IMG/VR virus record: IMGVR_UViG_3300028837_000375
Span: 1-37,038 of that record
DNA from: a virus
Direction: 5' to 3' (one strand)
Length of the DNA: 37,038 nt
Shown: positions 3,989 through 35,209 of the stretch, in pieces
How positions within the stretch are numbered: position 1 is the first letter of the stretch
Layout of the letters: each line of letters opens with the position of its first letter
Program-made: the position numbers and the translations under genes
The notes under the pieces: model-generated
Told to the model about the DNA's origin: nothing
The model's database searches: none
The model's input: the letters and a program-made list of their open reading frames with translations, nothing else

Positions 3989-4002
3989 CTTTGGAGAAAG
4001 TT

Positions 4003-4404: not shown

Positions 4405-4416
4405 AGGAATGAAAAA

Positions 4417-5199: not shown

Positions 5200-5200
5200 A

Positions 5201-16499: not shown

Positions 16500-19400
16500 A
16501 TGAGTTGGTTCGCAACTACATTAAATCCACAAACAGGTACGATAAGTAGTGGTACTTTATCAGATACCTATGCAGATGATACTAATGAATTAGTATTGAC
16601 TGAAGTAGGGGCTACTCCTGGATTTGAGTATTGGTTTGATTTTACAGGTGTGCCTACTGATACAAATCTAGTTCTGAACCTTGCTGCGAACTATGATGGT
16701 TCGGGTACTCATATTGTCAAGTTGTATTTATGGAATTTCAATACAACTACATTTGATGCTCTTACACTTTCTGCTGTAGATTTACCTGATAGTGCAACGA
16801 AGCAATACTACCAATTTGTTTTGCCTGATACACCTAATATTAATGATTATGTTGATGGTGGTGTTTTAAGACTAAATATTGAACACGTCAACGGTGGTAA
16901 TGCTGCTCATACATTACACATTGACTACATGGCATTGGATTATCAGTTTCCACCATTACCTGCTGTTGCAAGAATCGCTCCTGTGATTGGCGGTAATGCT
17001 CTGATAGCATGGCCTATGATTGATGCCGATGGTAGGGTGATACCGACTATCCCTGCGAATGCATTAATTTCTGACATTAGAATCGGACATGTATATGCAA
17101 TAGGTGGCTACTCTCCTAGTGGTTACACAGGAGCTAATGAAGCGTTATCTGTTGTTGAGAATGCATGGTATTCTAGAACCCCTTTAGCAGTACCTAGAAC
17201 AAAGCTTGCTGTTGCTACTGACGAAGAACGTCCGTTTGCTTTCGGTGGACTAGGTGCTCCTAAAGCGGTAAGTCGTTATGACCCTGTTCCTCAGACATGG
17301 ACAGAGTTAGGTGACATGATTCGTTCCCTCTACAGTCATGGTGCTGTAGGGGTTTCGATAAGTAAAAAAGAACCGAATAACCAACTTGACGAACTGAAGT
17401 CATTAATATTTGTAATGGGTGGTAAAGACCAAGTTACCACTCTACCGTCAAATGGTAATGAAGAGTATGACCCTGATACAGATACTTTTACAACCAAAAC
17501 AGGGTTACCATTAGCAAGACAGGATTTTGGTTATAGTGCTGTAAATAACGAAAAGATTTATGCTACAGGTGGTACTCCAAGTCATGATACGAACTATGAG
17601 TATGACCCTGTAACAGATGCATGGACAGTAAAGGCAATATTACCTACAGGACGTGATGAGCTTGCAGCTTCAGGAAATGCAGAATCTAATTTCACGTTCA
17701 ATGGTAGCCTTTTAGGTATAAGTCAGAAGTTAGTAGAAAAATATCTTCCTGCTATAGATTTATGGGTTACTGAAACTCCACCATCAATCGCACGTGGTAA
17801 GTTAACCTCTTCAATTTGTATGGGAGCGGGTGAACAAGCTGCTGTGATGGGTGGTTTAGAGATTCCACCTGATTGTACAAATGGAACTCCTTCTGATTTA
17901 GCAGAAACTTATGATACCTTAGCGGAATCATGGGTTAATAAAACTGACATGCCTACTGCTCGTCATAGCTTGGGAAGTAGTGATGTCAGGGGTGTAAGCA
18001 TCGCAATCAGTTACCAATCAATTCAAGGTAACGCAAATCTGCAACCTGCAAATAAGTATATTGAAGGTAATGCACGAATCAAGGCAGTAGAAATAAAGTA
18101 CATTACTGCTGACGGTAGGATAATACCTACGATAACTGCGAATGCTCATATTGTCAGGGCTATTACAGGAAGAGCTTATATCTTAGGTGTATGGACTGAG
18201 TATATAACTGCGACTGCAAGAATAGCTCCTACCTTACCTGCTAATGCGAAACTGAAGCAATATTATACTCAGACATTAACATGTGTTGCAAGAATTGGAA
18301 CATCACTTACCGCTACTGCAAGAATTAAAAATCTTAGAATCAGGGCTAGAGCTAGAATTAGACCTGTTATTACCTCTCTTGCTAGGGTAAGACCACGGAT
18401 AATTTGTAGGGCTAGAATCAGACCGAGAATCATAGCCAATGCTAAGATTATAGCTGTATGGCAAAGAAATATTACTGCCGATGGAAGAGTGAGACCTGTC
18501 TTAACAGGTGGTGCAAGAATTCAGCCTACAATCAGTAGTACTGCACGTATAAGTCCTACAATTAGTGCGAGTGCAGAAGTTATAATTTATCCAAGCATAC
18601 CAGCAAATGCTCATATCTTAACCTTGTGTGTGCCAACGGTAGTTCCTTCTCCAACATCAGGAGCAGGACAGGCAACAATTAGCGGTACAGGAAGAATAGG
18701 TTTTGAATGTATCGGTTCTAACATCGGAAAGGTTTATGTCTCAGGTGGTTGGAGACATACTTATGATAATAAGCAGACTGTTCATGAAGCGTATGAAGCT
18801 CTGCATGATTTTTGGTTCACAGTCCAAGAACTACCGAAAAGAAAAGCTCAACATGGTGAAGGTTCTAGTGAGCTTCAAATAACCATGTACGCATTAGGTG
18901 GTGCTTCTGATGAGCCTGAGCTAGATGCACCGAGTGGTGAGAAAGATAATTTAGAATATAATCCTGATTATAATGTTTGGACAACAAAGACTTCTCTTGT
19001 TGTTGGGAGAAGAAATAATGCTGTAACAAATGCCTGTGATTTCAATGGGTATGAAGAAATATTCAGTATAGGTGGTAGGGCTGAGGATACAGGAGTAGCA
19101 ATCGGTAATAATGATGCTTATGACCCTGCTACTGATAGTTGGACAACAAAGACAGGGATAACACCTAGAGATAGATTAGCTGCAGCTTATATAAACGATA
19201 ATACTACAGGCGATTTAAAGATTTATGCTACAGGTGGTGAATACACATTAAGCACCAATGAAGCATACGATGTGGCTACAGATTCTTGGACTACTAAAGC
19301 AGGAATGACTCAGGCACGACAAGAACATGCTTCAACGTTTGTTCAAGATGGAGTGTTTGAATATATTAATGTATCAGGTGGTCTAGACAGTCTAGGGTAT

Positions 19401-20534
19401 CCTATAAGTGCGATTGAAAGTTATCTCGATACTTTAGATGTATGGGTAACTGATATTAGTTGGACAACCGAAAGAGATAGAATTGTAGCTGAGACCGTTC
19501 ATACAAATTCTACACGTTCTCCTGTGGCAATAATGGCAGGGGGCGGTGACTATAAAGATGCAACCGAAGAATACAGCTTGTCTGTTGGTTCTAGTTGGCT
19601 GATTTCAAAAGCTGACATGATAACAGGGAGAGCGGATGCAGGAAGTGGTTTTGTTAGAGGAATTCAATGGTATTCCATTAGTCAAACGCTGACAGGGAAT
19701 GGAAGAATTCAACCTTCCATATCTGCTAGGGCTGAGATTGTTGGAAATGTTCCCCTGTATGCTGTAGCAAGAGTTATACCAAGTATACAGGCAACCGCTA
19801 GAATCAGACCTGTTATTTCTGCTGACGCTAGAATCAGACCTGTTATTTCAGCGAGTGCATTAATCAGAACAACAAATCTCTTTGCCAATGCTACGATAGT
19901 TTATGTAATTCAGGCTGATGCAAGAATTCAACCTACGATTAGCGGTACTGCTAGACTAGTTGAAACTGAATTAAAAACGATAGTAGGCGATGGAAGAATT
20001 CAGCCGAGTATTCCTGCGAGTGGTAGGATTGCTCATTTAAAATATCCACCTTATCCTTTACGTGCAAATGGACGGATAAGTGTTGCTCAGGAAGATACAA
20101 TAGATGCGAATGGACGGATAAGACCTTCATTAACTTCTGTTTTTAGAATTCAGCCTTCAATAAAAGCTGATGCAAGAATTCAGGTTACTGTTGAAGAAAG
20201 TATCGGTTCAGACGCAAGAATCAGACCTATAATCGGTGGGAATGCATTTATCGCTCCTTATATTCAGGGTAAAGGTAGAATAAGACCGATAATTACTGTA
20301 ACAGCTAGAATTGCTCCTTCTATTGGAGCTAACGGAAAAATTCAACCGTCTATTGGGGCGAATGCTAATATAGCACACGGAATCATTGCTGATGGTAGAA
20401 TAATACCTTCAATCAGAGCGGATGCTAGAGTGAAAGTTTTAATCCCACATTCTGAGACAATTGAAGCAAACGCTTTTATACGAATGGCAAAACTCAGGAG
20501 TGAAGTAGTTCAGGTTTATTGGGAGGAAAATTAA
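16500..20534 (+). CDS. Giant kelch-propeller/GRI-repeat protein A
   Basis: A 1344-residue virion protein, probably an adhesin or fibre. Order of parts: an N-terminal jelly-roll-like domain (~1-150; VKLYLWNFNTTTFDAL, then LRLNIEHV); a short GRI-repeat stretch (~155-190); a six-bladed kelch-like propeller (~190-495; blades end in patterns such as YDPVTDAWT and open with YATGG); a GRI array (~502-710); a second six-bladed propeller (~720-1055); and a final GRI array (~1060-1335). The GRI unit is about 10 residues, [G/A]RI[R/Q]Px[I]xA, in places exactly tandem. There is no signal peptide. The start has only a weak AGGG site. It lies between capsid and connector genes. Kelch propellers bind ligands, often glycans or proteins, so host attachment is the leading idea. 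An alternative is capsid or neck decoration. Confidence 0.8.
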   Translation: MSWFATTLNPQTGTISSGTLSDTYADDTNELVLTEVGATPGFEYWFDFTGVPTDTNLVLNLAANYDGSGTHIVKLYLWNFNTTTFDALTLSAVDLPDSATKQYYQFVLPDTPNINDYVDGGVLRLNIEHVNGGNAAHTLHIDYMALDYQFPPLPAVARIAPVIGGNALIAWPMIDADGRVIPTIPANALISDIRIGHVYAIGGYSPSGYTGANEALSVVENAWYSRTPLAVPRTKLAVATDEERPFAFGGLGAPKAVSRYDPVPQTWTELGDMIRSLYSHGAVGVSISKKEPNNQLDELKSLIFVMGGKDQVTTLPSNGNEEYDPDTDTFTTKTGLPLARQDFGYSAVNNEKIYATGGTPSHDTNYEYDPVTDAWTVKAILPTGRDELAASGNAESNFTFNGSLLGISQKLVEKYLPAIDLWVTETPPSIARGKLTSSICMGAGEQAAVMGGLEIPPDCTNGTPSDLAETYDTLAESWVNKTDMPTARHSLGSSDVRGVSIAISYQSIQGNANLQPANKYIEGNARIKAVEIKYITADGRIIPTITANAHIVRAITGRAYILGVWTEYITATARIAPTLPANAKLKQYYTQTLTCVARIGTSLTATARIKNLRIRARARIRPVITSLARVRPRIICRARIRPRIIANAKIIAVWQRNITADGRVRPVLTGGARIQPTISSTARISPTISASAEVIIYPSIPANAHILTLCVPTVVPSPTSGAGQATISGTGRIGFECIGSNIGKVYVSGGWRHTYDNKQTVHEAYEALHDFWFTVQELPKRKAQHGEGSSELQITMYALGGASDEPELDAPSGEKDNLEYNPDYNVWTTKTSLVVGRRNNAVTNACDFNGYEEIFSIGGRAEDTGVAIGNNDAYDPATDSWTTKTGITPRDRLAAAYINDNTTGDLKIYATGGEYTLSTNEAYDVATDSWTTKAGMTQARQEHASTFVQDGVFEYINVSGGLDSLGYPISAIESYLDTLDVWVTDISWTTERDRIVAETVHTNSTRSPVAIMAGGGDYKDATEEYSLSVGSSWLISKADMITGRADAGSGFVRGIQWYSISQTLTGNGRIQPSISARAEIVGNVPLYAVARVIPSIQATARIRPVISADARIRPVISASALIRTTNLFANATIVYVIQADARIQPTISGTARLVETELKTIVGDGRIQPSIPASGRIAHLKYPPYPLRANGRISVAQEDTIDANGRIRPSLTSVFRIQPSIKADARIQVTVEESIGSDARIRPIIGGNAFIAPYIQGKGRIRPIITVTARIAPSIGANGKIQPSIGANANIAHGIIADGRIIPSIRADARVKVLIPHSETIEANAFIRMAKLRSEVVQVYWEEN
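18004..18640 (+). repeat. GRI-type ~10-residue repeat array (protein A, central)
   Basis: Coding repeat array between two propellers. Units such as ARIRPVITS, ARVRPRIIC, ARIRPRIIAN, GRVRPVLTGG and ARIQPTISST follow one another every 10 residues. The R-I/V, P and I/L positions are the most constant. Confidence 0.8.
19675..20500 (+). repeat. GRI-type repeat array (protein A, C-terminal)
   Basis: About 275 residues of the same repeat family closing protein A. It includes near-identical tandem 30-base units at 19797-19826 and 19827-19856, each coding ARIRPVISAx, which suggests growth by slippage or unequal recombination. Confidence 0.8.
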
Positions 20535-20536
20535 AA

Positions 20537-21406
20537 ATGGATGTACAAATTAATGGTTCTACCGCTACCCAAATGGGATTTGAAAGTATCAATAGGTGGA
20601 TGGAGCTAGTCCTGCCAGGTGCAGCTAGGCAGATGGATATAAGAGTTTTAGATGAGGATGGTAGACTCTTAACTACTGACCCTGATGAGATTAAACTCAG
20701 CGTCTATAATGACAATGAGGAACTTATCTATCAAGGTGACTATCCTGCTCCTTCAAGCGGTACTACGCAAATTCAAAAGAGGGAAGAGGGTGCTTACTAT
20801 TATAATTTAAATGCTGATGAACGAACTCTCTATGATTACATGCTGTATTGGCAGGTGTATATTGGTACAGGTTACAGTACTCTTGAGGTCTTTCAGTATG
20901 CAAAGGTAGCAAAGGTAAGAGCCTTAATGTTACTTCCACGATTGAGAGGTCAGTTAGACAAATCAGGAAAAGATGTACATGAAACACATGGTTGGACAGA
21001 TGACCATTTGTATCTTTTACTAGAAGGTGGTGTGCAAGAAATATGTAAGCAACATCCTAGAGTTAATTATACTTTATCAACCTTTCCTATTGATACATGG
21101 TGGCAACTCCTGATTGATAGTGCAACGATTTTGGGATTGATAGCTCAAGGTATATTCTCAATTGATACTGATTTGAATTATAGTGACCAGGGTATAATGC
21201 TAAATGTTGACCATGCAGGTTCTATAAATTCTTATTTTGGAGCTTTAGTGCAGAGGTTTAATGACAGCATACAAAAGTTCGGGCTAAGACATTATCAGAG
21301 ACCGAGCTTATTAATGCAGTACCCACGTGCATACTACGGATTTTGGAGCGTATGGAATGCAGCTCCTTATGGTGTAAGTTTTCCACGTATATTTGGAGTG
21401 AGATAA
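20537..21406 (+). CDS. Putative head-tail connector/neck protein
   Basis: A 289-residue protein. The N-terminal ~90 residues form a small beta domain (MDIRVLDEDGRLL, IKLSVYNDNEELIY). The C-terminal part is a helical domain with LLPRLRGQLDKSGK, a WTDDHLYLLLEGGVQEIC helix, and LGLIAQGIFSIDTDLNYSDQGIMLNVDHA, followed by a tail ending in FPRIFGVR. This pattern is common in adaptor/head-completion proteins of large myoviruses. Start ATG 20537 follows GGGAGGA (20521-20527), which lies in the end of the giant gene A; the in-frame TTG at 20519 overlaps the site. Likely docks onto the portal to extend the DNA channel. The role is inferred from pattern and position between head and tail genes. Confidence 0.62.
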   Translation: MDVQINGSTATQMGFESINRWMELVLPGAARQMDIRVLDEDGRLLTTDPDEIKLSVYNDNEELIYQGDYPAPSSGTTQIQKREEGAYYYNLNADERTLYDYMLYWQVYIGTGYSTLEVFQYAKVAKVRALMLLPRLRGQLDKSGKDVHETHGWTDDHLYLLLEGGVQEICKQHPRVNYTLSTFPIDTWWQLLIDSATILGLIAQGIFSIDTDLNYSDQGIMLNVDHAGSINSYFGALVQRFNDSIQKFGLRHYQRPSLLMQYPRAYYGFWSVWNAAPYGVSFPRIFGVR

Positions 21407-21548: not shown

Positions 21549-22535
21549 ATGGCTATATGGTTTCCACCACAACGTAGATTTCAGCAATTATCTTATTGGC
21601 AAAGGGTGAGAAAGACAAATGAGTGGCTCTTGTCTGTTAACCCCTTCTATGCCTACTTGTGGCTAAAAAAGATAGACGGAATACCCTGCACCTGTATCAA
21701 GGATACCACGGAACAGTCAGACAAAAAGTGTACAATCTGTTATGGAACTAAGCTTGTAGGTGGTTACGATAAGTGGGGTTTTGTCAGCACAAACATTGAT
21801 TCTCAATATGAAGGTTTAGAGATTGATAATCATATAAAAGTGTGGACTGAGCTAAGACCTCATAGAATGGTTTTGGATAGAGGATGGGAAAGAGGGGAGA
21901 TAATAACTCCATTTGTTTCTCAGACAAATAGTTTAGGATGGGATGGTTACTCAGTAGATGACTATGTATATGATGAAGAGCATTCAGGTATAGATTACTA
22001 CTACCAGGCGAGAGGTAGTGATGAATGGAAACCTTTAAGTCACATTAATTTCCCTGCATTGACAGAGACAGATAATTTCTACAGATTTAAAATTGTATTG
22101 TGGAGAGATAATCAGACATATAAAAGTCCTGTATTCGGAATGATTCAGGTTAGGTATCAGGTTAAAGAAATCCCTAGAATGAGAATGTCACGAAAATCTA
22201 TGGGTAACAGACAGAATATAAGAGAAGAGTACGGTAACATAGAAGGTGAGGGTGGTCTTCAGTATTGGACATTAGATGCTCCTACAATAGTAACTACAGA
22301 ATGGGTACGAGCAGGATATAATCCAATATCTTCAGTTACACCTTTTACAAAACGTGAGAGAGAAATTCCAATTATACATACCGAAAGTTTTCTTGAACTT
22401 CATACAGGTCAACAAGAGGACAAAAGGTACTCTGTGGTAGCATTTCAGCAGAGTGAGCCTGGTGGGGTATTGCTGAGTCAGCACTTCAGTTTAAGAATTC
22501 TCCAACCTCATGAAATTTACTATAAGGTATTTTAA
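21549..22535 (+). CDS. Putative neck/virion protein with zinc-knuckle insert
   Basis: A 328-residue protein. Near residues 47-64 a CxC...CxxC cluster (C47, C49, C61, C64; CTICYGTKLVGGY) resembles the zinc-knuckle element of structural proteins in the neck regions of large phages. The remainder is beta-rich with many aromatic residues (DYYYQARGSDEWKPLSHI, FYRFKIVLW) and a segment of basic residues (RMRMSRKSMGNRQNIREEYG). The stop overlaps the next start (TAATG), so it is coupled to the 3088-residue gene. A head-closure, neck or fibre-attachment role is inferred from location. Confidence 0.55.
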   Translation: MAIWFPPQRRFQQLSYWQRVRKTNEWLLSVNPFYAYLWLKKIDGIPCTCIKDTTEQSDKKCTICYGTKLVGGYDKWGFVSTNIDSQYEGLEIDNHIKVWTELRPHRMVLDRGWERGEIITPFVSQTNSLGWDGYSVDDYVYDEEHSGIDYYYQARGSDEWKPLSHINFPALTETDNFYRFKIVLWRDNQTYKSPVFGMIQVRYQVKEIPRMRMSRKSMGNRQNIREEYGNIEGEGGLQYWTLDAPTIVTTEWVRAGYNPISSVTPFTKREREIPIIHTESFLELHTGQQEDKRYSVVAFQQSEPGGVLLSQHFSLRILQPHEIYYKVF

Positions 22536-25500
22536 TGGGTATTCTAACAGAAACAATTACAGGCATTGCAAGAATTAAGACTACAGGTAAAGTGTGGGTA
22601 ACCCAAGATGATTTTCTAGAAGGTCTATTATCTAACACATTTTTCAGGGGTAACTTGCAGTTGTCTTATAGTTGGGCTGTAGGAGCAACTTTAAATACAG
22701 CTAGAAGACTCTTAGGTGCTGCGGGTACTAAGAGTCTAGGTTTGACTTTTGGTGGATACACCACTAGTACGGTAAATACTTGTGAGGATTATAACGGAAC
22801 TGCTTGGTCATCTGCTGGAAACATGATTAGGGCTACCTATAGTCCTGGTCCAGCAGGTACTCAGGGTAATGCGATAGCTATAGGTGGTAATAAAACAGGT
22901 GCAACAGCTTATGACCCTAGAACTGAAGAGTATCATGGAACAGCTTGGTCAAGTGGTGGTAATTTAAATTTAGGAAAAAGGGAGAATGGGGCAGTAGGAA
23001 GTGCAAGTGAAGCGTTATCTTTTTGCGGTTATCGGTATACTGGTAGTGATACGGTTTATAAGACTTCTGAACATTATAATGGAACAGCATGGAGTGTTGA
23101 TGCTGATTTAAGTGAAGCAAAATCGCAAGTATCAGGCTTAGGAACTCCATCTGCTGCATTGTGTTTGGGCGGTATAAATCTGGTTCCTACTCAATTAGAT
23201 ACTACAGAAGAATATAATGGTACATCATGGTCAGTTGTTAATTCTCTAAATGTTGGTGTGTATAGAATGGCTGCTGGCGGTAATGTAGATAGTGCATGGA
23301 ATTGTACAGGAACTACAGCTACCGTTGGCTACAGAGCTGCTTCAGAAGAATGGAATGGAGTAACTTGGTACACTCAGAATAGTTGTAATGCTGGAAGAAG
23401 AGAGTCAAGTGGAGATGGTGGTGTCGGTGATGGTTTTATAGCAGGTGGTGGTAATGCCCCTGTCATGGACAGTACTGAGATAAAAGAATTCTCAACTGGA
23501 GATACAGGAACATGGACAGTTGATATTGATAGTGGCTTCGATGCAGAATCGTTAGATATACCTAAAACACAATGGGAAAATCTTAGGTGGGATAGCACAG
23601 GCGGGAGTGTTAAATACAGATATAAAACAGCTAGTACGGAAGCAGAGCTAGGTGGAGTATGGTCTACAGGCGGTGACCTGAATGCATTAAAGTATGGACA
23701 GTACGGTAATGGTGTACAAACTGCTTCACTAAGTTATCTTGGTAGAATTCCGAGCGGAGATAATAGCGATGAAACTGAAGAGTATAATGGAACTGCATGG
23801 TCTTCAGTTGGTGATTTAAATCTAGCTAGAAGAGTTCCATCAGGATGTGGAACTGTAGATGCTACCCTAGCTTTTGGTGGTTATACCTCAGCTTATGTAA
23901 AAAACACAGAAGAATATAATGGTACTTCTTGGTCTAATGTTCAAGATTTACCTATTGAGATAGGAAATGGTGGCGGCACAGGAACACAATCAGCAGGATT
24001 ATGTGTCGGTGGTACAGACGTAGGTCTTGCGGCTATAGATGATACCTATGAATACTCTGAAGCTTCATGGTCTACAGGTGGTAATTTAAGTGTTGCACGA
24101 AGACTAAACAAAGCGACAAACGGTACATTATCAGCAGCTCTAACTAATGGTGGTTACACTACTGAGTATGTTAAGACATCCGAAGAATACAATGGTACTA
24201 CGTGGACTGCTTCTGAAGACTTAAATATCATAAGAGGGAATCACGGTGGGGCAGGTTCAGCAACATCGGCTATAAGTTTTGGTGGTACTGACGGTGTAGA
24301 CCTTTCTTCTTCCGAAGAATTTGACGGAGTTAGTTGGACTATCACAGGTGCGGGTTTAAATCTAGGAAGAAGAGCATTTGCTAGTTCGGGAACACTATTA
24401 GCAGGACTTTGTTATGGTGGTTATACTACAGAAGCTACTACTTTAACAGAAGAGTATAATGGTGGCACAGCTTCTTGGAGTTCTTATTCTGCAACTGAGC
24501 CTGCCGATATTGGTAGTGCTGACAGGTGGATGAGATTAGAATTAACTCTAACAGAAGGAAGTACTCCTGAAATTACAGAAGTTGGTCAAGATTATTATGC
24601 TCCTGCTAATCTTGAAACATGGACAACAAAAGCTGATTTCAAGGAAGGTACTCCTGACGGTGTATCGTTTACTAGAGTTGATGGAGAGCTTCAATTAATT
24701 GGAGCATGGACAACCGCAGGAACGTTGAATGCTGTCCGTTCTCTTCATGCTGCTTTTGGTGCTTCTGTCAATGCTTCTCTTGTAGTCGGTGGTTATAACA
24801 GAATAGCTACTACCAATAGGGATACAACAGAAGAGTATGGTGGTACATCATGGTCAAATGCAGGTAACATATCTGTTGCAAAAAGACAATTCAGAGGTGT
24901 CGGAACTATACTCGCAGGATTGAGTTTTGGCGGTACTACAGGAACTACGGTTGCTACCGCAGAAGAGTATGGTGGTGTTTCATGGAGTGAAGTAGCTTCT
25001 CTTAATACAGCGAGACACGGTATAGCTGAAGCAGGAACAGCATCGTTAGCTTTAGCTATTAGTGGTTATAGTACTATACTAGGAACGAATCAACCTTCAT
25101 GCGAACAGTATGACGGTACAAGTTGGTCTAGTCAAGCAGATGTTAATACAGCACGAAGGAATCTAGGTGGTTTCGGTAGTACAGTTGATGTTGCTACTTG
25201 TTTTGGTGGTTATATAGCTGTTAGAACAGCTATCACAGAAGATTATAATGGTACTTCATGGTCAGTTAGTGGAGACTTAAGTCAGGAAACTCAGAGTATG
25301 GCTGGTTGTGGTACGCAGACAGGTGGATTTTGTGTATCAGGACAAACAGACGTTTTCCTAAAAACTGTAGAAGAATATTGCAGTCCTACTTGGCATATAG
25401 GAGCGGATTTACTAGCTGCTACAAGATGGGTTGGAGCAGCGGGTAATACAAATTCAGCCTTACAGTCAGGTGGTGATTTAGATGCTTCCAATTCTTCAGA

Positions 25501-28500
25501 TACGTGTGAAGAATATGGTTCATGGGCTACAGGAGCTACGGGAACGTGGCTTTCCGAAGGACGTGATAGTGGTAAGGAATATTTTGCTGATGATGGTTAC
25601 GAGTGGAGAAGATTACTTTGGGAAAACACAGGTGGTGGTAGTGTCAAGGCAAGAGTTAGAACTTGCGACAATGCTAGTATGTTTGATTTCAAAGGGTGGA
25701 CTACTGAAGCAGAAGTAAATCTTCCTGTTGATTATATTCATGGTAGTGGTTTTGGAACTGCAACAGCAGGAATGAAAACAGCTGGTGATAAAGGAGCAAA
25801 TTACGAAACAGAAGTAACGGAAGAATTTGATGGACTTTGTTGGTCAAGTGGTGGTGACTTACTTGAGATAAGAAATAGACATGCAGGGGCAGGAGTAGTA
25901 ACAGCAGGATTGATATGGTGTGGTAGTCAGGATAGAAACTCAGGAATTAAAAATACCACCGAAGAATACAATGGTCTTTGTTGGAGTGCGGGCGGTAACA
26001 TGTTGATTGCCTGTAGACCTGGGACAGGTTTTGGTTCTCAGACAGCTGCTCTTAGTATAAGTGATAATACTAATGATAAAGACGTATATCATTATAATGG
26101 TACTGCATGGTCTAATTATGTAGACCTGAATATTGGTAGGTCAGCTTGTGGTGGTAATGGAACAGCTACAGATGGTTTGGTAGAAGGTTCTGGTTACGCA
26201 CCATCAGAGAGTACTACTGAAGCATTTAATGGAAGTTCATGGTCTACAGGTGGTGATTTAAATTATGGTAGATATGATTGTACAGGAGCAGGAGCAGGGT
26301 CAACTTCAGGGTTAGTAGCGGGCGGTAGAAATGCTACCTTCAGAACTGAAAAATATGATGGCACTAGTTGGACTAATACCAACAACATAAGTGCTCAAAG
26401 AGAAAGACATGCTGGTTGTGGCTCAGACACTTCAGCATTGATGTGGTGTGGTTATTATTCAGGTATTTTAGGAACTACTACATTATATACAGAAGATGTA
26501 CCTACATGGTATCCTACAGGTGGAAGCGGATACTTTGAAGCTTCAGGATATGAAACTGAAGCTCCTGCGAAAAGATACTTCCAAGTTGAGATGGTTCTGA
26601 CAGAGGGAAGTAGTCCACAAATACCTGAGATTGTTGGGGAATTTGGTTTAGCAAGTAATTTTCATACCGATACTATAACTGCTAATGGCAGTATAGTTGC
26701 AGTTGTTACACAGACTATCAATGGTAGTGCAAGCATTCAACCTATCTTATTAGGTAGTGCTTTCATCACTCCTTCTATTACTGCAAATGCTGATATTGTT
26801 TCGGTAGGTTTAGAAACGATTACTGCAAATGCTAAAGTGCAACCTATCATTACAGCTAATGGTCAAGTGTTCCCTGGGATTAGAGGTAATGCTAATGTAA
26901 AAGTTTTTGATAAAGTATGGTCTTCCAAAGCAGAATTTGACACAGGTTCTTATGATGATGTTGAAGTGCTTCAAGATTCTGATGGAGATTCATTAATATT
27001 AGGTACTTCTCCTGTTTGGAGTGCTGGTGGTAATTTACCAACAGGTAAGAGAAGAACAGCAGGAGCAGGAACAGTAGACGCAGGGTTGTGTTTTGGTGGT
27101 GAAGTTGACCCCGCCACAGCAACAGGAAGTACACAAGAATATAATAGTGGTGCATGGACTAATGTAAATGCCATGAACACTACTAGATGGTATTTAGCTG
27201 GCTGTGGTACTCAGTTAGCAGCTCTAGCGATAGCAGGAAATAATGCTAACAGTAGAACGGAAGAGTACGATGGAACTACGTGGACTTCAGGTGGCGATTT
27301 AAGTAACGGTAGAGATTATGCAGGGAGTTCTTCTAGCGGTTCTGTTACGTCTGCTTTTATTTGCGGTGGCTATTGGACGAATGCAACTCATACTGAAACT
27401 GAAGAGTATGATGGTTCAGTATGGGCTACAGGTGGTACATTATCTAGAAGTCGAAGATTACAGGGTACGTGCGGTACGGTAAGTGCAGGATTAACTTTCG
27501 GTGGTTCATATAGAGCAGGGAGTTTCTTTAATACTGACCTTACTGAAGAGTATAACGGTACTGTTTGGAGTGGTGGTGGAGACTTAACTGCTGCTAGAGA
27601 CCTTCTATACGGTCATGGAACACAGTTAGCAGGGTTAGCGACTGGTGGAGCGAATCAGGGTGGTAGAGTAGAGACATACGATACTAGTACTTGGTCACAG
27701 CAAGGTAACATGAATGTGTGGCGAATTACTCATGGTGGTGGTGGTCCTTCAAATACCTCTGCTTTTACGGTAGCGGGTGGAACGTATCTAACATCTACTT
27801 CTATACTTGGTACACCCACTACAGGAACATGGACAGTAGATTATGACACAGGTTTTGATAATGCTGATTGGAAACAAGCAGGGTGGATAAATCTTGATGC
27901 AGGAAGTGTAAAACTCAGAGCAAAAACAGCTTACTCACAATCAGCATTAGATGGTGCTTCATGGTCAAGTTACTATACTGATAAGTATACGGACATTGAT
28001 GTTCCTGATGATAGATGGTTACGAGTAGAGCTTACTCTTGAGTCAGCTAGTAATCCTAAAGTAAATCAGGTAGGGGTTGCTTTTGATGAGGTAGGCAATC
28101 CGACTATAACAGGTGATGCTAGAATTAGACCTGTAATTACTGCTAGAGGTGACATACTAGTAGCACATATCGAGACTCTCAATGCCAACGGTAGAGTAAG
28201 ACCTGTAATAACAGGTGATGCTAGAATTGCTCCTGTCATTGGAGCAAATGCTGTTATATGGCCTTCACTCCCTGCGAATGGAAGAATTCAAGTAGCTGAG
28301 TCTCATACTATCAATGGTGACGGAAGAATTCAGCCGACTATTTCAGGTGACGGAAGAGTTAGACCTGTCATTACTGCGAAGGCTGAGATTTCTGTAGAGT
28401 TTGTTAAAACTATCAATGCTAATGGTAGGATTCAAACTACTGAGACTCAAAACATAAATGGAGATGGAAGGGTAAGACCTGTATTAACAGGTGACGGAAG

Positions 28501-31500
28501 AGTTAGACCTATCATTACTGCAAAGGCTGAGATTTCTGTTGAGTTTACAAAAACTATAAATGCAAACGGTAGGATTGAAACTACTGAGACTCAAACCATA
28601 AATGGTGATGGTAGAGTAAGACCTGTCATAAGCAGTAACGCTAGAATCCAACCTTCAATTACTGCAAAGGCTGAGATTTCTGTTGAGTTCACAAAAACTA
28701 TAAATGCAAACGGTAGGATTCAAACTACCGAAGAAGATACAATACCAGGTGATGCTAGAATTCAACCTACCATTGGTGGAAGAGCAGATATAGTAGCCAC
28801 AAATAGCGAATCAATAAATGCTAATGCGAAAATCCAACCTATCATTACTGCGAAAGCAGAGATTGAAGTTGAGTTTACAAAAACTATAAATGCCAACGGA
28901 AGAATTCAAACTTCGGAAACTAATACCATAAGCGGTGATGCAAGGATTCAACCAATAATTACCGCTAATGCAATGTTAATTGATTACATTCCTTCTAATG
29001 CAAGAATACAAGTTACTGAGACAAAAACCATAGAAGGAGATGGAAGAGTAAGACCTGTCATTGGTGCGAATGCTGAGATACAAGTAGAATTCTCTCAGAC
29101 TATTGGTGCTAAAGCAGAAATTGAAGTTGAGTTCAACAAGACAATAACCGCTAATGGAAGAGTAAGACCTGTCATTACTGCAAGGGCTGAGATTTCTGTA
29201 GCGTTCACACAAACCATAAATGCGAATGCAAGAATTAGAAATACAGCAGAAAGGACAATAACAGGTGATGCTAGGATAAGACCTTTTATTACTGCCAATG
29301 CTGAGATTGACCTAACTGCTATTAAGACAATCACATCAAATAGCAGGATTAGACCTGTACTAGTTGCAGACGGTAGGGTTTCTCCAAGTATCTCTGCAAA
29401 TGCTAATATTGTCTTATTCGATAAAGTATGGAAGACACAGGCTGATTTCGATACAGGAGTTTATAATAATACTAAGTATGATGTTCCTTCTGAAACATTA
29501 CAATTAGATGGGGCTATATTAGGAACGTGGACAGTAGATTTCGATTCAGGTTTTAATGATGCTGATTGGAATACATTAGGATGGATAAATCTTCTTGGTG
29601 GCGGGAGCGTAAAAGCGAGAATAAAATCTGCACCTTCACAGGCAGAATTAACTACCGCTCCGTGGTACGGTTATTATACTGATAGTTTTCAGGACATCGG
29701 TGTACCAAATAATAAGTGGATTCGGATAGAATTAACATTAGAAACTGCGAGTGACCCTTACGTATCATCACTTGGAGTTTCTTATGATGAGTTTAATAAT
29801 CCTCTTCAACATGCTGATGCGAGAATAAGACCTGTCATTACTGGAAGGGCTGAGGTTTCTGTACCGTTTACTCAGACAATACCTGCTAATGGAAGTATTG
29901 TTCTTCCTTCTAATCTGATAACAGGTTCAGGTTTTATATCTCTGCCAAAGACCATAACTGCGAATGCAATGATACAGCCAAGTATCACAGCAAGAGCATT
30001 AGTTGTTGATAGGACAGCAAGAACTATTGATAGTATTGCAAGAGTTTTAAGAGATACTACCACAAGACTATTTATAAGTTCCGATATAAAAGAAAATATC
30101 TTGATGTATGACAGGTATCAAGACCTACGTGGTCTTGTGGTCGATGAGAATTACTACACTAGGGATGGACATATTATTCCTAGAAAACGTGGAAGAACTC
30201 TTGTACACAGCTACTTGTTCGCATTACAGAGTCCTTTACATCCTGATACAATTTGGTCAGTTTATCTTAATAATTCATACCAATACCACATATTAACAGA
30301 TGCAGTAGGAATCACTCCGTTTAGATTGTTTTTGGATAGAGGTAGAAACAGAGTAGATGTTGTAAGAAAAGCAACTGATTCTCAGGTTATGCAGATTAAT
30401 CCTACGACTAGGGTAAATCTTATACCATTTGAGTCAAACAGTAGCACAGTTCAGGAAGAGACTTTTATTCTCAGAAATATTGATGGTTCAATCATAAGAT
30501 TGGAGAATAGTGAATATTCTTTTATTGATGCTCATCATGTTCAGATAGCTAGTTCAGCGTATGATAGCACAGCGATTTACACTATTTACTATTCTGTTCT
30601 AGAGAATCAAGCTCAGGAAGTTTGGACTAAAAAATATTCTGCTTGGGTTAATGCTCTTAATTATGTCACATGGTTTGGTGCTTATTCTGAAGAGATGATG
30701 CTTGTTGATGATTCTATCGAAGAGACAAGAGGTAACACATATATTCGGGAAGCAACACATCAGGGATTAGAGCAAAATTTTGGTGAAGTATTTATTAAAA
30801 CTTCTCCTGACCCGAAATGGAGTGTAGAGGGTTATAGAGAATTAATAGAGGAATATTTCCATTCTTATCACAGGTCTTCGATTACGTATAAAGGTGTTAA
30901 GGATGGTGTTGGTAACATAAGCACTATTCCACCAAAGATTGAATCGTACAGAACTTACAAAAAATGGGTTTTAGGATGGCAGTTCTTACCAAACAGAGAC
31001 TTAATTGTTGATACGCTTTCGGGTAAACCTGCTGGATGGCTAGTTACAGGTGGAACATCAGCTAATCCTTCTTCTCCTGCTCCTAAGTTTGGTGATAGCC
31101 ACTTAGAAGTGACAGCTACAGGTGGTGAGTCAGTAGTATTAGAAGCTAATGCTATCCATACATGGAAGCGTTTTGCTCACAGGAAATGGAGATTAAGAGG
31201 ATGGTTGAAGAAGGATAGCGGACCAAGCATACCGATGTTCTTACAACTGTCTGAGGATGGTGGTCACACATGGCATCAATCAGGACAAATGCTTGTAACA
31301 AATACTTATAAACGATTTACATTTGAAAAAACTATTTCAAAATATGCAACTAGTCTGAGAGCACGTTTTGTTATAGGGACAACTACAACTCTTCCACCTG
31401 CGGGTAGAAAAATTTATCTTAACTTCCCTTCACTAGAAGAGCAGAGAGATAAATCTCTACACTTAGGGGCTTCAGTATATTCACCTGACCCAACTGATTC

Positions 31501-31801
31501 TGTTTATTGGTCTACAGTTCCTAGAGACAAGGCAAAATCATATCACGGTTTTAGGATATTCTGTTGGGGAATTAATACACTTACGGATAACGAAAAAGAG
31601 TTGGTAGGATTTACAGATGTGAATGGTAGCGACATAATGAATCCAAATACAGGACATCCGTATTGGATTAAATCAGCCGAAGCTATTCTTGAGTTAATAA
31701 CAGAAGATGATTATAGACTGTGGAGTGGGTACGACATGTTAGAGACAGGAGAGAAAGAAAACATGGAAGCAGTTCTCAGAGAGGATTTAACTGATGATTA
31801 A
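22535..31801 (+). CDS. Giant multi-propeller/GRI-repeat protein B
   Basis: A 3088-residue protein, the largest in the window, probably a virion adhesin or long fibre. It contains five six-bladed kelch-like propellers (blade pattern EEYNGTSWS..G.LN.AR....G.GT..A.L.FGGY) at about residues 47-318, 375-644, 725-1000, 1055-1322 and 1492-1758. Four copies of a beta-sandwich module (GTWTVDxDxGF...SVKxRxKT, then WLRxELTLE) hold or separate them: two propellers in each of copies 1 and 2, one in copy 3, none in copy 4 (2297-2424). GRI arrays occupy ~1378-1458, ~1856-2294 and ~2427-2505. The C-terminal ~580 residues are non-repetitive and include a CBM4/9-like jelly roll (~2818-2968; GKPAGWLVTGG, KWRLRGWLKKD). 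No signal peptide. Translation is coupled to the upstream gene by TAATG and to the downstream gene by an 8-base overlap. Confidence 0.82.
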   Translation: MGILTETITGIARIKTTGKVWVTQDDFLEGLLSNTFFRGNLQLSYSWAVGATLNTARRLLGAAGTKSLGLTFGGYTTSTVNTCEDYNGTAWSSAGNMIRATYSPGPAGTQGNAIAIGGNKTGATAYDPRTEEYHGTAWSSGGNLNLGKRENGAVGSASEALSFCGYRYTGSDTVYKTSEHYNGTAWSVDADLSEAKSQVSGLGTPSAALCLGGINLVPTQLDTTEEYNGTSWSVVNSLNVGVYRMAAGGNVDSAWNCTGTTATVGYRAASEEWNGVTWYTQNSCNAGRRESSGDGGVGDGFIAGGGNAPVMDSTEIKEFSTGDTGTWTVDIDSGFDAESLDIPKTQWENLRWDSTGGSVKYRYKTASTEAELGGVWSTGGDLNALKYGQYGNGVQTASLSYLGRIPSGDNSDETEEYNGTAWSSVGDLNLARRVPSGCGTVDATLAFGGYTSAYVKNTEEYNGTSWSNVQDLPIEIGNGGGTGTQSAGLCVGGTDVGLAAIDDTYEYSEASWSTGGNLSVARRLNKATNGTLSAALTNGGYTTEYVKTSEEYNGTTWTASEDLNIIRGNHGGAGSATSAISFGGTDGVDLSSSEEFDGVSWTITGAGLNLGRRAFASSGTLLAGLCYGGYTTEATTLTEEYNGGTASWSSYSATEPADIGSADRWMRLELTLTEGSTPEITEVGQDYYAPANLETWTTKADFKEGTPDGVSFTRVDGELQLIGAWTTAGTLNAVRSLHAAFGASVNASLVVGGYNRIATTNRDTTEEYGGTSWSNAGNISVAKRQFRGVGTILAGLSFGGTTGTTVATAEEYGGVSWSEVASLNTARHGIAEAGTASLALAISGYSTILGTNQPSCEQYDGTSWSSQADVNTARRNLGGFGSTVDVATCFGGYIAVRTAITEDYNGTSWSVSGDLSQETQSMAGCGTQTGGFCVSGQTDVFLKTVEEYCSPTWHIGADLLAATRWVGAAGNTNSALQSGGDLDASNSSDTCEEYGSWATGATGTWLSEGRDSGKEYFADDGYEWRRLLWENTGGGSVKARVRTCDNASMFDFKGWTTEAEVNLPVDYIHGSGFGTATAGMKTAGDKGANYETEVTEEFDGLCWSSGGDLLEIRNRHAGAGVVTAGLIWCGSQDRNSGIKNTTEEYNGLCWSAGGNMLIACRPGTGFGSQTAALSISDNTNDKDVYHYNGTAWSNYVDLNIGRSACGGNGTATDGLVEGSGYAPSESTTEAFNGSSWSTGGDLNYGRYDCTGAGAGSTSGLVAGGRNATFRTEKYDGTSWTNTNNISAQRERHAGCGSDTSALMWCGYYSGILGTTTLYTEDVPTWYPTGGSGYFEASGYETEAPAKRYFQVEMVLTEGSSPQIPEIVGEFGLASNFHTDTITANGSIVAVVTQTINGSASIQPILLGSAFITPSITANADIVSVGLETITANAKVQPIITANGQVFPGIRGNANVKVFDKVWSSKAEFDTGSYDDVEVLQDSDGDSLILGTSPVWSAGGNLPTGKRRTAGAGTVDAGLCFGGEVDPATATGSTQEYNSGAWTNVNAMNTTRWYLAGCGTQLAALAIAGNNANSRTEEYDGTTWTSGGDLSNGRDYAGSSSSGSVTSAFICGGYWTNATHTETEEYDGSVWATGGTLSRSRRLQGTCGTVSAGLTFGGSYRAGSFFNTDLTEEYNGTVWSGGGDLTAARDLLYGHGTQLAGLATGGANQGGRVETYDTSTWSQQGNMNVWRITHGGGGPSNTSAFTVAGGTYLTSTSILGTPTTGTWTVDYDTGFDNADWKQAGWINLDAGSVKLRAKTAYSQSALDGASWSSYYTDKYTDIDVPDDRWLRVELTLESASNPKVNQVGVAFDEVGNPTITGDARIRPVITARGDILVAHIETLNANGRVRPVITGDARIAPVIGANAVIWPSLPANGRIQVAESHTINGDGRIQPTISGDGRVRPVITAKAEISVEFVKTINANGRIQTTETQNINGDGRVRPVLTGDGRVRPIITAKAEISVEFTKTINANGRIETTETQTINGDGRVRPVISSNARIQPSITAKAEISVEFTKTINANGRIQTTEEDTIPGDARIQPTIGGRADIVATNSESINANAKIQPIITAKAEIEVEFTKTINANGRIQTSETNTISGDARIQPIITANAMLIDYIPSNARIQVTETKTIEGDGRVRPVIGANAEIQVEFSQTIGAKAEIEVEFNKTITANGRVRPVITARAEISVAFTQTINANARIRNTAERTITGDARIRPFITANAEIDLTAIKTITSNSRIRPVLVADGRVSPSISANANIVLFDKVWKTQADFDTGVYNNTKYDVPSETLQLDGAILGTWTVDFDSGFNDADWNTLGWINLLGGGSVKARIKSAPSQAELTTAPWYGYYTDSFQDIGVPNNKWIRIELTLETASDPYVSSLGVSYDEFNNPLQHADARIRPVITGRAEVSVPFTQTIPANGSIVLPSNLITGSGFISLPKTITANAMIQPSITARALVVDRTARTIDSIARVLRDTTTRLFISSDIKENILMYDRYQDLRGLVVDENYYTRDGHIIPRKRGRTLVHSYLFALQSPLHPDTIWSVYLNNSYQYHILTDAVGITPFRLFLDRGRNRVDVVRKATDSQVMQINPTTRVNLIPFESNSSTVQEETFILRNIDGSIIRLENSEYSFIDAHHVQIASSAYDSTAIYTIYYSVLENQAQEVWTKKYSAWVNALNYVTWFGAYSEEMMLVDDSIEETRGNTYIREATHQGLEQNFGEVFIKTSPDPKWSVEGYRELIEEYFHSYHRSSITYKGVKDGVGNISTIPPKIESYRTYKKWVLGWQFLPNRDLIVDTLSGKPAGWLVTGGTSANPSSPAPKFGDSHLEVTATGGESVVLEANAIHTWKRFAHRKWRLRGWLKKDSGPSIPMFLQLSEDGGHTWHQSGQMLVTNTYKRFTFEKTISKYATSLRARFVIGTTTTLPPAGRKIYLNFPSLEEQRDKSLHLGASVYSPDPTDSVYWSTVPRDKAKSYHGFRIFCWGINTLTDNEKELVGFTDVNGSDIMNPNTGHPYWIKSAEAILELITEDDYRLWSGYDMLETGEKENMEAVLREDLTDD
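26670..26905 (+). repeat. Short GRI-repeat array between sandwich copies 2 and 3 (protein B)
   Basis: About 80 residues with units such as NGSIVAV, GSASIQPIL, GSAFITPSI, NAKVQPII and NGQVFPGI. It is more diverged than the long array and links the second and third sandwich modules. Confidence 0.65.
28100..29422 (+). repeat. Long GRI-repeat array (protein B)
   Basis: About 440 residues of repeats alternating short units (GDGRVRPVI, NARIQPSI) with longer ones (KAEISVEFTKTINAN). A higher-order period of exactly 144 bases (48 residues) is seen: the ITAKAEISVEF element begins at 28370, 28514 and 28658, then after 186 bases at 28844. All spacings are multiples of three, so the reading frame is kept. 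Confidence 0.82.
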
Positions 31802-32417
31802 ATTAAAAGTTAAATTTACAATGGGAAAGAGTTGGAGTGGGATAAAAAATTCTCACATGTGGAATGATTTGAAACAACAACTGCTTATGACGATGGCATA
31901 CACTTTACAGAAGACTATTGCTGACCAAGCAGAGATTATGCATAAAAAACCAACAGGTAAATCTTATAATAGTTGGTATGTCCATTCTAAACCACAAGAG
32001 GGAAAGGCGATTATCGGAAATAGTCAGCCTTACATGTATTGGCAGAATTATGGTGTTAAACCTCATATAATGAAATACCTTATGAACATTGGGTACAGAC
32101 AGTATCTTGCTTTTGGTAGGTATCCTTATTGGGGTAAAAAGTTTATTCCTATAAGAGCCTCTGACGGTAAAATAATATTCAGACGTGCAACTAAAAAATC
32201 TTTTAATTCAGCAATACTTCCTAGAGAAGCTTTGCAGTATGCTAAACAAGCTTTCGGGAGTGCGACAATAGGTACAGGGTGGTATCATCCAGGATATGAG
32301 GGAAAGAATTTTGTTGATACAGGAATAAATATTTTCAAAAATATACACATGCCAGCTATTCTGAATGATATTAAACTTAGAGGTGGCTCTGTTAAATTAA
32401 CTAGGTACTCAGGATGA
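31794..32417 (+). CDS. HK97 gp10-like neck/tail completion protein
   Basis: A 207-residue protein. The segment KPTGKSYNSWYV...IIGNSQPYMYWQNYGVKPHIM follows the HK97 gp10/neck-protein pattern (short TGxx-S helix, strand, then Y...xNxG..PH), and the C-terminal part (GYEGKNFVDTGINIFKN) fits the closing helix. Such proteins join the head to the tail or help complete the tail end. The ATG overlaps the stop of the giant gene by eight bases, without its own clear ribosome binding site, so it depends on coupling. The stop overlaps the next ATG (ATGA). Its place ahead of the tail terminator and sheath matches this role. Confidence 0.7.
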   Translation: MIKLKVKFTMGKSWSGIKNSHMWNDLKQQLLMTMAYTLQKTIADQAEIMHKKPTGKSYNSWYVHSKPQEGKAIIGNSQPYMYWQNYGVKPHIMKYLMNIGYRQYLAFGRYPYWGKKFIPIRASDGKIIFRRATKKSFNSAILPREALQYAKQAFGSATIGTGWYHPGYEGKNFVDTGINIFKNIHMPAILNDIKLRGGSVKLTRYSG

Positions 32418-32770: not shown

Positions 32771-33484
32771 ATGGGTGGTTTTGGGAAATACACAGAGAAT
32801 GCCAAAGACCAAGTTATCAACATGATAAGAGACCAATTTAGGACTCAAGGGTTTGCTCAGTCAGAAATGCCTACGATGGAAAAGTTTAATTTCTATTCTG
32901 ATGACCCTTATGAGACCTTTGTAAGAGTGTTGACTTCTCTGCCTGATATTGACCAACAGCTTCCGTTAGTAGCTGTTACAATCGGAACAGCTACGGGTGT
33001 TCCAATGGGTATTGGAACAGGTGGAGATTATGTGGGAATGTTTCCCGATGAAGATGGTTACTACCAAAAGATTTACAGTAGTAGAGTTAACATGACGGTA
33101 AATATAGATGTAGGAACAGAAGATACCAATACCCGTTCAGAAATAACCGATATAATAATCAGTATAATCCAATTTTATTTGAGAGACTCGGCTTGGGAGC
33201 TTAATGCCCCTGAAGATTCGGAAGAATGTTGGCAAATGATTTTTGATAGAGACCTTAGTTTATCGGGAGAGCAAGAAATCCCTAAACCTGAAGCTGACCC
33301 AGAGGATAAAATATATGTCCAACGGATGAGCATCAACGTAATCTATATTGATTACGTATCTAGACTAGCACCAGGTCAAGGGAAGACTGGTCCAGGAGTT
33401 CCTGAGTCACACAAAGGACCTGTCACCGTTGTTCCTGATGTTACAGACCCAGGTTATCACCCAACTATGAGATGGATAAAATAG
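32771..33484 (+). CDS. Putative tail terminator protein
   Basis: A 237-residue protein immediately before the sheath gene, the normal place of the tail terminator in myoviruses. It has an N-terminal helix (NAKDQVINMIRDQFRTQG), a Gly-rich loop, and the strand-strand-helix RVNMTVNIDVGTEDTNTRSEITDII, which continues to QFYLRDS, as expected for the gpU/gp15-like fold that caps the last tube ring and binds the neck. A later strand pair (YVQRMSINVIYIDYVS) completes the sheet. The C-terminal ~40 residues are Pro/Gly-rich and probably flexible. The gene starts nine bases after the previous stop. Assigned by position and fold pattern. Confidence 0.62.
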   Translation: MGGFGKYTENAKDQVINMIRDQFRTQGFAQSEMPTMEKFNFYSDDPYETFVRVLTSLPDIDQQLPLVAVTIGTATGVPMGIGTGGDYVGMFPDEDGYYQKIYSSRVNMTVNIDVGTEDTNTRSEITDIIISIIQFYLRDSAWELNAPEDSEECWQMIFDRDLSLSGEQEIPKPEADPEDKIYVQRMSINVIYIDYVSRLAPGQGKTGPGVPESHKGPVTVVPDVTDPGYHPTMRWIK

Positions 33485-33514
33485 TAATTCAAACTTTATA
33501 AGGAGGTGTTAGTT

Positions 33515-35209
33515 ATGCCATACAGCAGTTACATACGTCCTGGTGTTTACATCGAACATGAGTACAGGGCTGTACTTGCAGCCTTTGGGGGACTGCCGAG
33601 AGGAATATGTTTAGTTGGAGAAGCTAGTAGGGCAAAATATGTTTTTGATGAAGTTGTTAGAAGGGGTTACGTGATTGACGAGAGTGTTACTCCCGCTGCC
33701 ACTTCACCACATCAGGTTACTCTAGCTTATACAGCTAATCAGTTGAAATCAGACACTAGTGTTAGTAAAGATGGTGTTGAAATTTCTCCTGAATCATGGG
33801 ATTTCGATGATAGCACTCACATAACTATCAAAGATTTTATTTACACCGCAGGTTCAAATTGGACAGTAAGCTATCAAGCAAGCTCAGGTTCACCACCTTC
33901 AACTGACCCATTAGTTAATGCGAATGCAGATGCAATTGATTTGGTGGGTACGTATCCAAGAGTAGCAACGTATGTTCAGGGTACTGACTATCAATTAACA
34001 GGTGACACGGTTGATTGGAGTCTTGCTGGTTCTGAACCTGCATTGGATACATCTTACTATGTGTCTTACACCTACGTAAGACCTGCAACTGATTACAATA
34101 CACCGAAGTTAGCTTTCAGTTTAGATGAAGTGTTAAATGACATCGGTGGATTGGACGGAACAAATCTTTTAGGTATAGGTGCTCAAATTGCATTTCAACA
34201 GAACGCTCCGTTTGTATGGTACGTTCAGGTTAATGATGCGGATGATGACGGTGTGTATACCAAAGAAGATTATAAGACAGCAATTGATGGCTGTGCGAAT
34301 AAAGAGGAAGTCACAGACATTGTTCCATTGATGCCAAACTACTTTACTGATGCTGATTACGATAACATCGCTTCTCATTTAAGACAGCATGTAATTGATG
34401 AGTCAAGCGTCTTTATTAAGCATGAAAGATTAGGATGGTTTGGTAGAAAGGTAAATACTGATATTGGCGATAAGTCTACTCAGTATTCCTTTGTGTATAC
34501 CGCAACACAGTTGCTTTATGCTGTTGCAGATAGTCCTGGAAGGGGAAGGCTGATTTTGGTCGGACCATCTTGGGTTAAGAAAACTATAGTCATGGAGACA
34601 GGTCAGGAGTTAGTTATGACATTAGATTCTAGCTTTATTGCTTGTGGTATCGCAGCGAAGCAGAATAGTTTCGATAATGTCTCTGAGTCTCTGTTGAGGA
34701 AGACCATAACAGGTTTTGATTCAATAGAGGAATGGTCTCCTGAGCAAGTTGACTATGCTGCTTCTTACGGTGTATGTGTGGTTTCTTACAAAGGTGGATT
34801 GCTCATCCTGCTAGACCCAATTACTACTGAGCCTACTGACATTGAGTTTCAGGAAATTTCAGCAATGTGTCAGAAAGACTTGGTGACAGCACGAATGAGG
34901 GAATACCTTGATGATAATATTGTCGGGATAGTTCCTGATGATTTGGATGACTTCATTTGGGATATTAAGGGAGCAATCGTGATAGTGCTTAAGTCTGCAA
35001 TTTCCGATGGTATTATTTCAACCTACAAGGATGAAAATGGATTGACGAGAGAGGTTGATACCACTAAGGATATTGAGGTCAGGCGAGATGAGACTGATGC
35101 TACCAAATACATTTTTAAGTATTGGTACAATCTTAAGTACCCTGCTAAGAGACTGTTTGGTACTTATACTGTTGACGCACCATTCACATCTCAGAAAGCT
35201 TCAGCATAA
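33515..35209 (+). CDS. Contractile tail sheath protein
   Basis: A 564-residue sheath subunit; it shows the phage has a contractile tail. The N-terminus PYSSYIRPGVYIEHEYRAVL is the standard sheath start that threads to neighbours. The C-terminal domain carries the conserved sheath region (YGVCVVSYKGGLLILLDPIT, then the MREYLDDNIVGIVPD helix, then KYWYNLKYPAKRLFGTY), which forms the core of the helical lattice. Between them two Ig-like beta modules are inserted (HQVTLAYTANQL... and TYVQGTDYQLTGDTVDWSL..YYVSYTY), probably exposed on the tail surface. Start ATG 33515 follows AGGAGGTG at 33501-33508; a GTG inside that site, in frame, is rejected. Tail tube follows directly. Confidence 0.93.
   Translation: MPYSSYIRPGVYIEHEYRAVLAAFGGLPRGICLVGEASRAKYVFDEVVRRGYVIDESVTPAATSPHQVTLAYTANQLKSDTSVSKDGVEISPESWDFDDSTHITIKDFIYTAGSNWTVSYQASSGSPPSTDPLVNANADAIDLVGTYPRVATYVQGTDYQLTGDTVDWSLAGSEPALDTSYYVSYTYVRPATDYNTPKLAFSLDEVLNDIGGLDGTNLLGIGAQIAFQQNAPFVWYVQVNDADDDGVYTKEDYKTAIDGCANKEEVTDIVPLMPNYFTDADYDNIASHLRQHVIDESSVFIKHERLGWFGRKVNTDIGDKSTQYSFVYTATQLLYAVADSPGRGRLILVGPSWVKKTIVMETGQELVMTLDSSFIACGIAAKQNSFDNVSESLLRKTITGFDSIEEWSPEQVDYAASYGVCVVSYKGGLLILLDPITTEPTDIEFQEISAMCQKDLVTARMREYLDDNIVGIVPDDLDDFIWDIKGAIVIVLKSAISDGIISTYKDENGLTREVDTTKDIEVRRDETDATKYIFKYWYNLKYPAKRLFGTYTVDAPFTSQKASA

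Follow-up and report, generated by a model that had tools for sequence, protein, structure and literature searches.

The locus and the parts of protein B

The window, that is the whole stretch of DNA analysed, is the linear 37 kb virus record IMGVR_UViG_3300028837_000375 (37,038 nucleotides). The gene order is that of a contractile-tailed phage and runs head-to-tail: large terminase, endolysin, portal fusion, protease, major head protein, connector-like genes and tail sheath. A single ORF at 5201-8830 encodes a 1209-residue fusion of a portal protein with a head morphogenesis (minor head) domain. Protein B, of 3088 residues, is encoded on the plus strand at 22535..31801 and all the parts described below lie in frame within this one ORF. 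Upstream are genes 20519-21406 and 21549-22535, neither of which matches a known family; they are called connector-like from their position only. Downstream, gene 31794-32417 carries a weak tail-completion/Neck1 match (E 0.0019) and is followed by gene 32771-33484 and then the tail sheath, 33506-35209. Protein A (16500-20534, 1344 residues) displays a different Kelch-type repeat region, with matches to PHROG 12615/16120, and long runs of ARI-type repeats of the type seen in protein B.

Four copies of one beta-domain of approximately 125 residues, here termed the scaffold, make up with their inserts most of the N-terminal 60% of protein B. Loop 1 of the scaffold lies between the strands 'LQL' and 'GTWTVD', and loop 2 between 'SVKxRxKT' and 'W..Y'; they divide the domain into segments 1, 2 and 3. 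The limits that follow, all on the plus strand, derive from a scaffold profile and a search with copy 4 for the scaffold, and from a blade HMM for the propellers. In copy 1, segment 1 (22586..22663, profile match to 22684) is followed in loop 1 by the six-bladed propeller 1 (22667..23485, residues 48-316), then by segment 2 (23483..23656, profile match to 23665), in loop 2 by the six-bladed propeller 2 (23657..24478, residues 377-648) and finally by segment 3 (24467..24595). Copy 2 is arranged likewise, with segment 1 (24614..24697, profile match to 24724), propeller 3 with six blades in loop 1 (24701..25528, residues 726-997), segment 2 (25526..25690, profile match 25505-25705), propeller 4, also of six blades, in loop 2 (25691..26506, residues 1066-1321) and segment 3 (26501..26653, profile match 26495-26644). 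The first blade of propeller 4 is weak and starts near residue 1054. Copy 3 has segment 1 (26906..27007, profile match to 27019) and the six-bladed propeller 5 in loop 1 (27011..27817, residues 1496-1761), after which segments 2 and 3 run on unbroken (27806..28090, profile match from 27803).

Short repeats of the ARI type, read directly from the sequence and possibly forming a stalk, occupy 28091..29395. Copy 4, identified by a structure model, the profile and the copy 4 search, then presents all three segments unbroken and without a propeller (29417..29791). A conserved C-terminal region, 30059..31798, is 60% identical in a related virus described below and is likely to be the virion anchor.

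Six-bladed propellers of Kelch type

The blade HMM identifies 30 blades in protein B, in five runs of six. A seven-bladed reading was not supported, as the HMM assigns six blades per propeller. Each blade is a repeat of about 44-48 residues that has a GG doublet and spaced aromatic residues; the blades run in tandem and are of Kelch type by these features. A profile search against solved Kelch propellers matches SAKe6BE (PDB code 7onc, E 5.6e-15), KLHL3 (4ch9, E 1.7e-11) and KLHL2 (2xn4, E 2.4e-11). The Pfam Kelch models give no match to the propellers, where the only Pfam match is a sub-threshold one to SPK, and PHROG 27227 matches over protein B with an E of 1.2e-178. Since the Pfam Kelch models miss what is a divergent phage branch, we use the term 'Kelch-type' rather than 'Pfam Kelch'. 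Other PHROG 27227 proteins of uncultured phages share with protein B the GG and TEEYNGTSW blade motifs and the six-blade units.

How are such propellers used elsewhere? A scan of viral contigs identified at least 579 propeller relatives, 579 of the 600 listed stretches being confirmed. Among the loci kept from the matches listed, 158 of 169 complete blade runs have a length of 6 or 12 blades; the median gap, among the matches listed, is 0 residues from blade to blade inside a propeller and 8 residues from one propeller to the next. The initial annotation had treated the propeller as a cassette, and a six-blade unit employed in so many phage contexts bears this out. In the other loci examined the PHROG 27227 propellers occur singly, in tandem, or spaced like beads on a string between or after other repeats; one of these loci (L039) has, after its propeller, a repeat form (KTIQSKARIE) that looks related to the ARI-type repeats of protein B. 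A profile search of the other propeller loci among the matches listed found the scaffold domain in none outside the two related contigs considered below (L008 and L009). Uncultured viral contigs (L016-L094) are rich in six-blade phage propellers, which are almost absent from records of isolated phages.

The scaffold domain and its two loops

The scaffold profile was built from the copies that it detects, so tests that avoid this circularity were used: a search with copy 4 only, a leave-out profile and comparison with shuffled sequences. With copy 4 as the only query, phmmer matches query parts 3-21, 31-79 and 77-123 in order in copy 1, parts 4-36, 36-76 and 84-118 in order in copy 2, parts 1-40 and 31-125 in order in copy 3 and, in the L008 protein, parts 3-30 and 35-123, again in order. 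The independent E-values range from 6e-34 to 0.04, the weakest being for segment 1 of copies 1 and 2 and segment 3 of copy 2. The query breaks near 21-40 (mostly 31-36) and 76-84, the same two places in copies 1, 2 and 3 and in L008. A profile made without copies 1 and 2 recovers their segments 2 and 3 at 3e-13 to 4e-6 and their segments 1 at 0.025 and 0.0013, values that are weak alone.

The initial annotation had read this part of protein B as four copies of a three-segment module and had proposed aligning the four joined sandwich sequences with each other. Joined copies, compared with each other and with L008, score z values of 20-52 over 500 shuffles per pair, with identities to copy 4 of 30-53%, and together with the profile and the copy 4 search this upholds the module. 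The five runs of six blades also agree with the filling described there for copies 1 to 4, of 2, 2, 1 and 0 propellers at the same two break points, and the blade HMM places the limits within about 20 nucleotides of those first given. The consensus proposed for the segments holds in part: the module is recovered in all copies, but copy 2 departs from the consensus (TGTWLSEGRDSGKEY; RYFQVEMVLTEGSSPQIPEI).

In the model of copy 4 (pLDDT 64, pTM 0.65), segments 1, 2 and 3 all contribute strands to a single domain. Insertion 1 maps between strands 34-37 and 43-50, a predicted loop at about 38-43, and insertion 2 between strand 72-79 with a short helix and strand 92-94, in a loop at about 84-91. 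The view that one domain is split at two fixed positions is thus supported, both falling in predicted loops of the copy 4 model. The two loops would sit at opposite ends of the sandwich if the strands simply alternate in direction. A model of copy 1 with its two propellers, based on 17 alignment rows, has a pLDDT of 42.8, too low to read closure, and no fold search was made with it. The sandwich presumably stays closed around the propeller inserts.

Compared with solved structures, the copy 4 model has galactose-binding-like jelly rolls in most of its best VIA rows, the top row being 4a42_A (Z 7.8, RMSD 3.1, 107 residues). The model aligns with members of this group (CBM32, F5/8C discoidin, APC10/DOC and SUN) over 1-128. 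The alignments of the jelly-roll rows start at residue 1 or 2 and reach about 128, so segment 1 belongs to the matched domain. Foldseek with the same model against two libraries gave no E of 0.001 or less, the best being 0.015. Given Z values of at most 7.8, marked by the tool as common, and this Foldseek result, the fold is called tentative: the scaffold may be a small galactose-binding-like jelly roll. The likeness to CBM32, discoidin, DOC and SUN jelly rolls is structural, with Z below 8, and is not accompanied by a sequence match; among curated families no Pfam match to the CBM32/F5/8C type was found, nor any solved relative by profile search.

Could each segment instead stand by itself, as a linker or small closed unit between propellers in tandem, with copy 4 the remnant of linkers after propeller loss? 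Propellers in tandem with short linkers are common in other phages, and the low-confidence copy 1 model (pLDDT 42.8) showed no closed sandwich. Against this, the prediction for copy 4 is one domain to which all three segments contribute strands, its structural neighbours cover 1-128, and segments 2 and 3 are continuous in copy 3 and in L008. In addition, the segments amount to a conserved, domain-like unit of about 125 residues, compared with propeller linkers of about 8 residues elsewhere among the matches listed. We regard the linker explanation as very unlikely. The sequence shows one scaffold domain with fixed insertion points that receive six-blade units, and the filling varies between copies and between viruses.

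Relatives, proposed propeller turnover and a possible role

Two contigs, IMGVR 3300031669_000026 (L008) and 3300031578_000156 (L009), come from two metagenomes and represent one related virus. The L008 protein, at 3068-6919 of that contig and 1283 residues long, comprises segment 1, one six-blade propeller, segments 2 and 3 unbroken, ARI repeats and a C-terminal region. The protein of these contigs thus shares with protein B the gene order, the C-terminal region (60% identity), the scaffold, the loop 1 propeller and the ARI repeats, but has one scaffold copy and one propeller as opposed to four and five. Between L008 and the window the sheath is 72% identical, gene 20519 70% and gene 21549 52%; the L008 propeller is 33-43% identical to those of protein B. 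Repeats of about 10 and 14 residues (xANARIxPxI) fill 28091-29395 of the window and 3-2894 of L009. In L008 an ORF that looks by eye like a homing endonuclease (1166-2170) separates the homologue of gene 20519 from that of gene 21549.

Nesting at loop 1, with conserved neighbours, is thus stable in the phage group, and loop 2 can be empty. The case also bears on a technical concern: the window is a metagenome contig rich in repeats, and the nesting might have arisen through an assembly chimera or misassembled repeats. The one open frame of 3088 codons, the diverged copies within it and the recurrence of loop 1 nesting in two contigs from other samples leave that explanation with hardly any credibility; the independent case of L008 and L009 indicates that the layout is no artefact, and the chimera was rejected on this ground.

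Two more distant relatives, L014 (virus Rctr197k) and L101, the latter found by a sheath search, retain genes 20519, 21549 and 32771 and the sheath in an unchanged order. A search between these conserved genes in both relatives found neither protein B nor gene 31794, so that protein B looks like an added virion part. Searches of viral contigs with the scaffold and the C-terminal region found relatives only of the L008/L009 lineage, one related virus with protein B; genome contigs and solved structures gave nothing, and phage records nothing beyond weak matches, at E 1-2, in jumbo phages of Erwinia and Pseudomonas, which were taken as chance. Pattern-based scans may miss distant relatives, which makes such absence weak evidence.

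The initial annotation also proposed that propellers were gained or lost as cassettes. Loop 1 is filled in copies 1, 2 and 3 and in L008, and loop 2 in copies 1 and 2 only. Scaffold alignments were made from pieces, because whole-copy alignments misplaced segments 2 and 3, or segment 1. A tree of the scaffold places copies 3 and 4 as sisters (support 99.7/100), and these differ by one whole propeller. The tree is unrooted, and its simplest reading is one propeller loss in copy 4. The propellers of protein B are mutually 29-36% identical, and these identities do not split loop 1 from loop 2. A propeller tree, made to test a loop-specific or swapped origin, has long branches, is poorly resolved and shows no grouping by loop; with the low identities, this makes a recent duplication unlikely. 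No direct DNA repeats of 8 nucleotides or more were found at the cassette borders. The peptide 'ILGT' flanks propeller 5 on both sides, though the DNA that encodes it is not exactly repeated there. A search for a diversity-generating reverse transcriptase gave no hit in the window or in the two relatives, which are fragments. Turnover of propellers as cassettes, whether by gain or by loss, gains support from the filled and empty states of sister copies 3 and 4 and between viruses.

Copy 4 might alternatively be the ancestral empty scaffold, propellers having been inserted independently into copies 1 to 3 and into L008. The low identity among the protein B propellers and the absence of loop grouping in their tree would suit such a history. 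It sits less well with the filling of loop 1 in all three of these copies and L008, and with copy 3 being the sister of copy 4; a single loss in copy 4 would be the simpler history, with the caveat of an unrooted tree. We consider independent insertion rather unlikely.

A propeller nested in another domain is already known in phage. In the podovirus nozzle protein (phage SU10; T7 gp12) the chain enters the propeller from a split platform domain and leaves to it, but that single propeller has seven blades and is part of the tail tube, with no repeated, variably filled scaffold (PMC9509320). Protein B is not a nozzle protein, as it has six blades per propeller and the genome encodes a contractile tail sheath. 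The jumbo phage CBB, which has a contractile tail, encodes Kelch propellers, one Kelch protein being detected in the virion, and its tail bears hair-like whiskers that are not assigned to genes and to which a Kelch link is unproven; the accessible part of that report describes no nested scaffold for these proteins (PMC5259590).

Outside phages, a single chain of galactose oxidase carries both a Kelch propeller and a CBM32-like domain. That propeller has seven blades, the domains are in tandem rather than nested, and the protein is an enzyme. Searches of the open-licence literature, which omits most subscription papers, turned up no scaffold that is both repeated and variably filled. The remark in the initial annotation that no described phage protein was known with this layout is to be narrowed: within that literature it stands for a repeated and variably filled scaffold, but nesting as such has the nozzle precedent (PMC9509320) and L008 and L009 share the layout with one propeller.

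What might protein B do? It is probably a virion appendage of an uncultured contractile-tailed phage, in which a repeated scaffold carries propellers plugged into two loops. Each of the two surface loops of the scaffold can take one complete six-bladed Kelch-type propeller. An anchor near the neck or tail may be provided by the conserved C-terminal region and a stalk by the ARI repeats, and the propellers would present binding faces to molecules of the host surface. Gene position and variability make an adhesive appendage attached to neck or tail the most likely role. The branching, multivalency in three dimensions and fibre nature suggested in the initial annotation are, like binding and the direction of change, features that we infer.

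A purely structural role, with the propellers packing protein B on itself, the neck or the sheath, and so bracing or decorating the particle without host binding, appears unlikely. The gene does lie between connector-like genes and the sheath, outside a typical receptor-binding cluster, and the podovirus nozzle propellers are tail-tube parts (PMC9509320). Yet propeller number differs between related viruses, five as opposed to one, while the neighbouring genes are conserved, and the failure to find protein B in the two distant relatives suits an accessory surface role better.

For the adhesive appendage, the comparison with L008 is instructive: the C-terminal region is conserved (60%) while the number of propellers (five versus one) and their sequence change. 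This suggests a modular host-attachment protein with binding heads that can be added or removed. Since the loops tolerate being filled or empty, in-frame gain, loss or exchange of whole heads could leave the anchor undisturbed. A further step, for now a tentative possibility, is that the scaffold serves as a plug board on which propellers are gained, lost and swapped at two loops by in-frame recombination while the anchor remains constant. If so, both the number and the specificity of binding heads would change, and adhesin domains would diversify in loops and not at fibre tips.

Protein B would offer a natural, repeated case of large domains placed in two loops of one small scaffold, with filled and empty states in one chain. 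It would represent a built-in experiment on the tolerance of a fold to inserts of about 270 residues and on the remodelling of surface proteins by phages, and it gives the abundant six-blade propellers of uncultured phages one clear context, beside a tail sheath gene.
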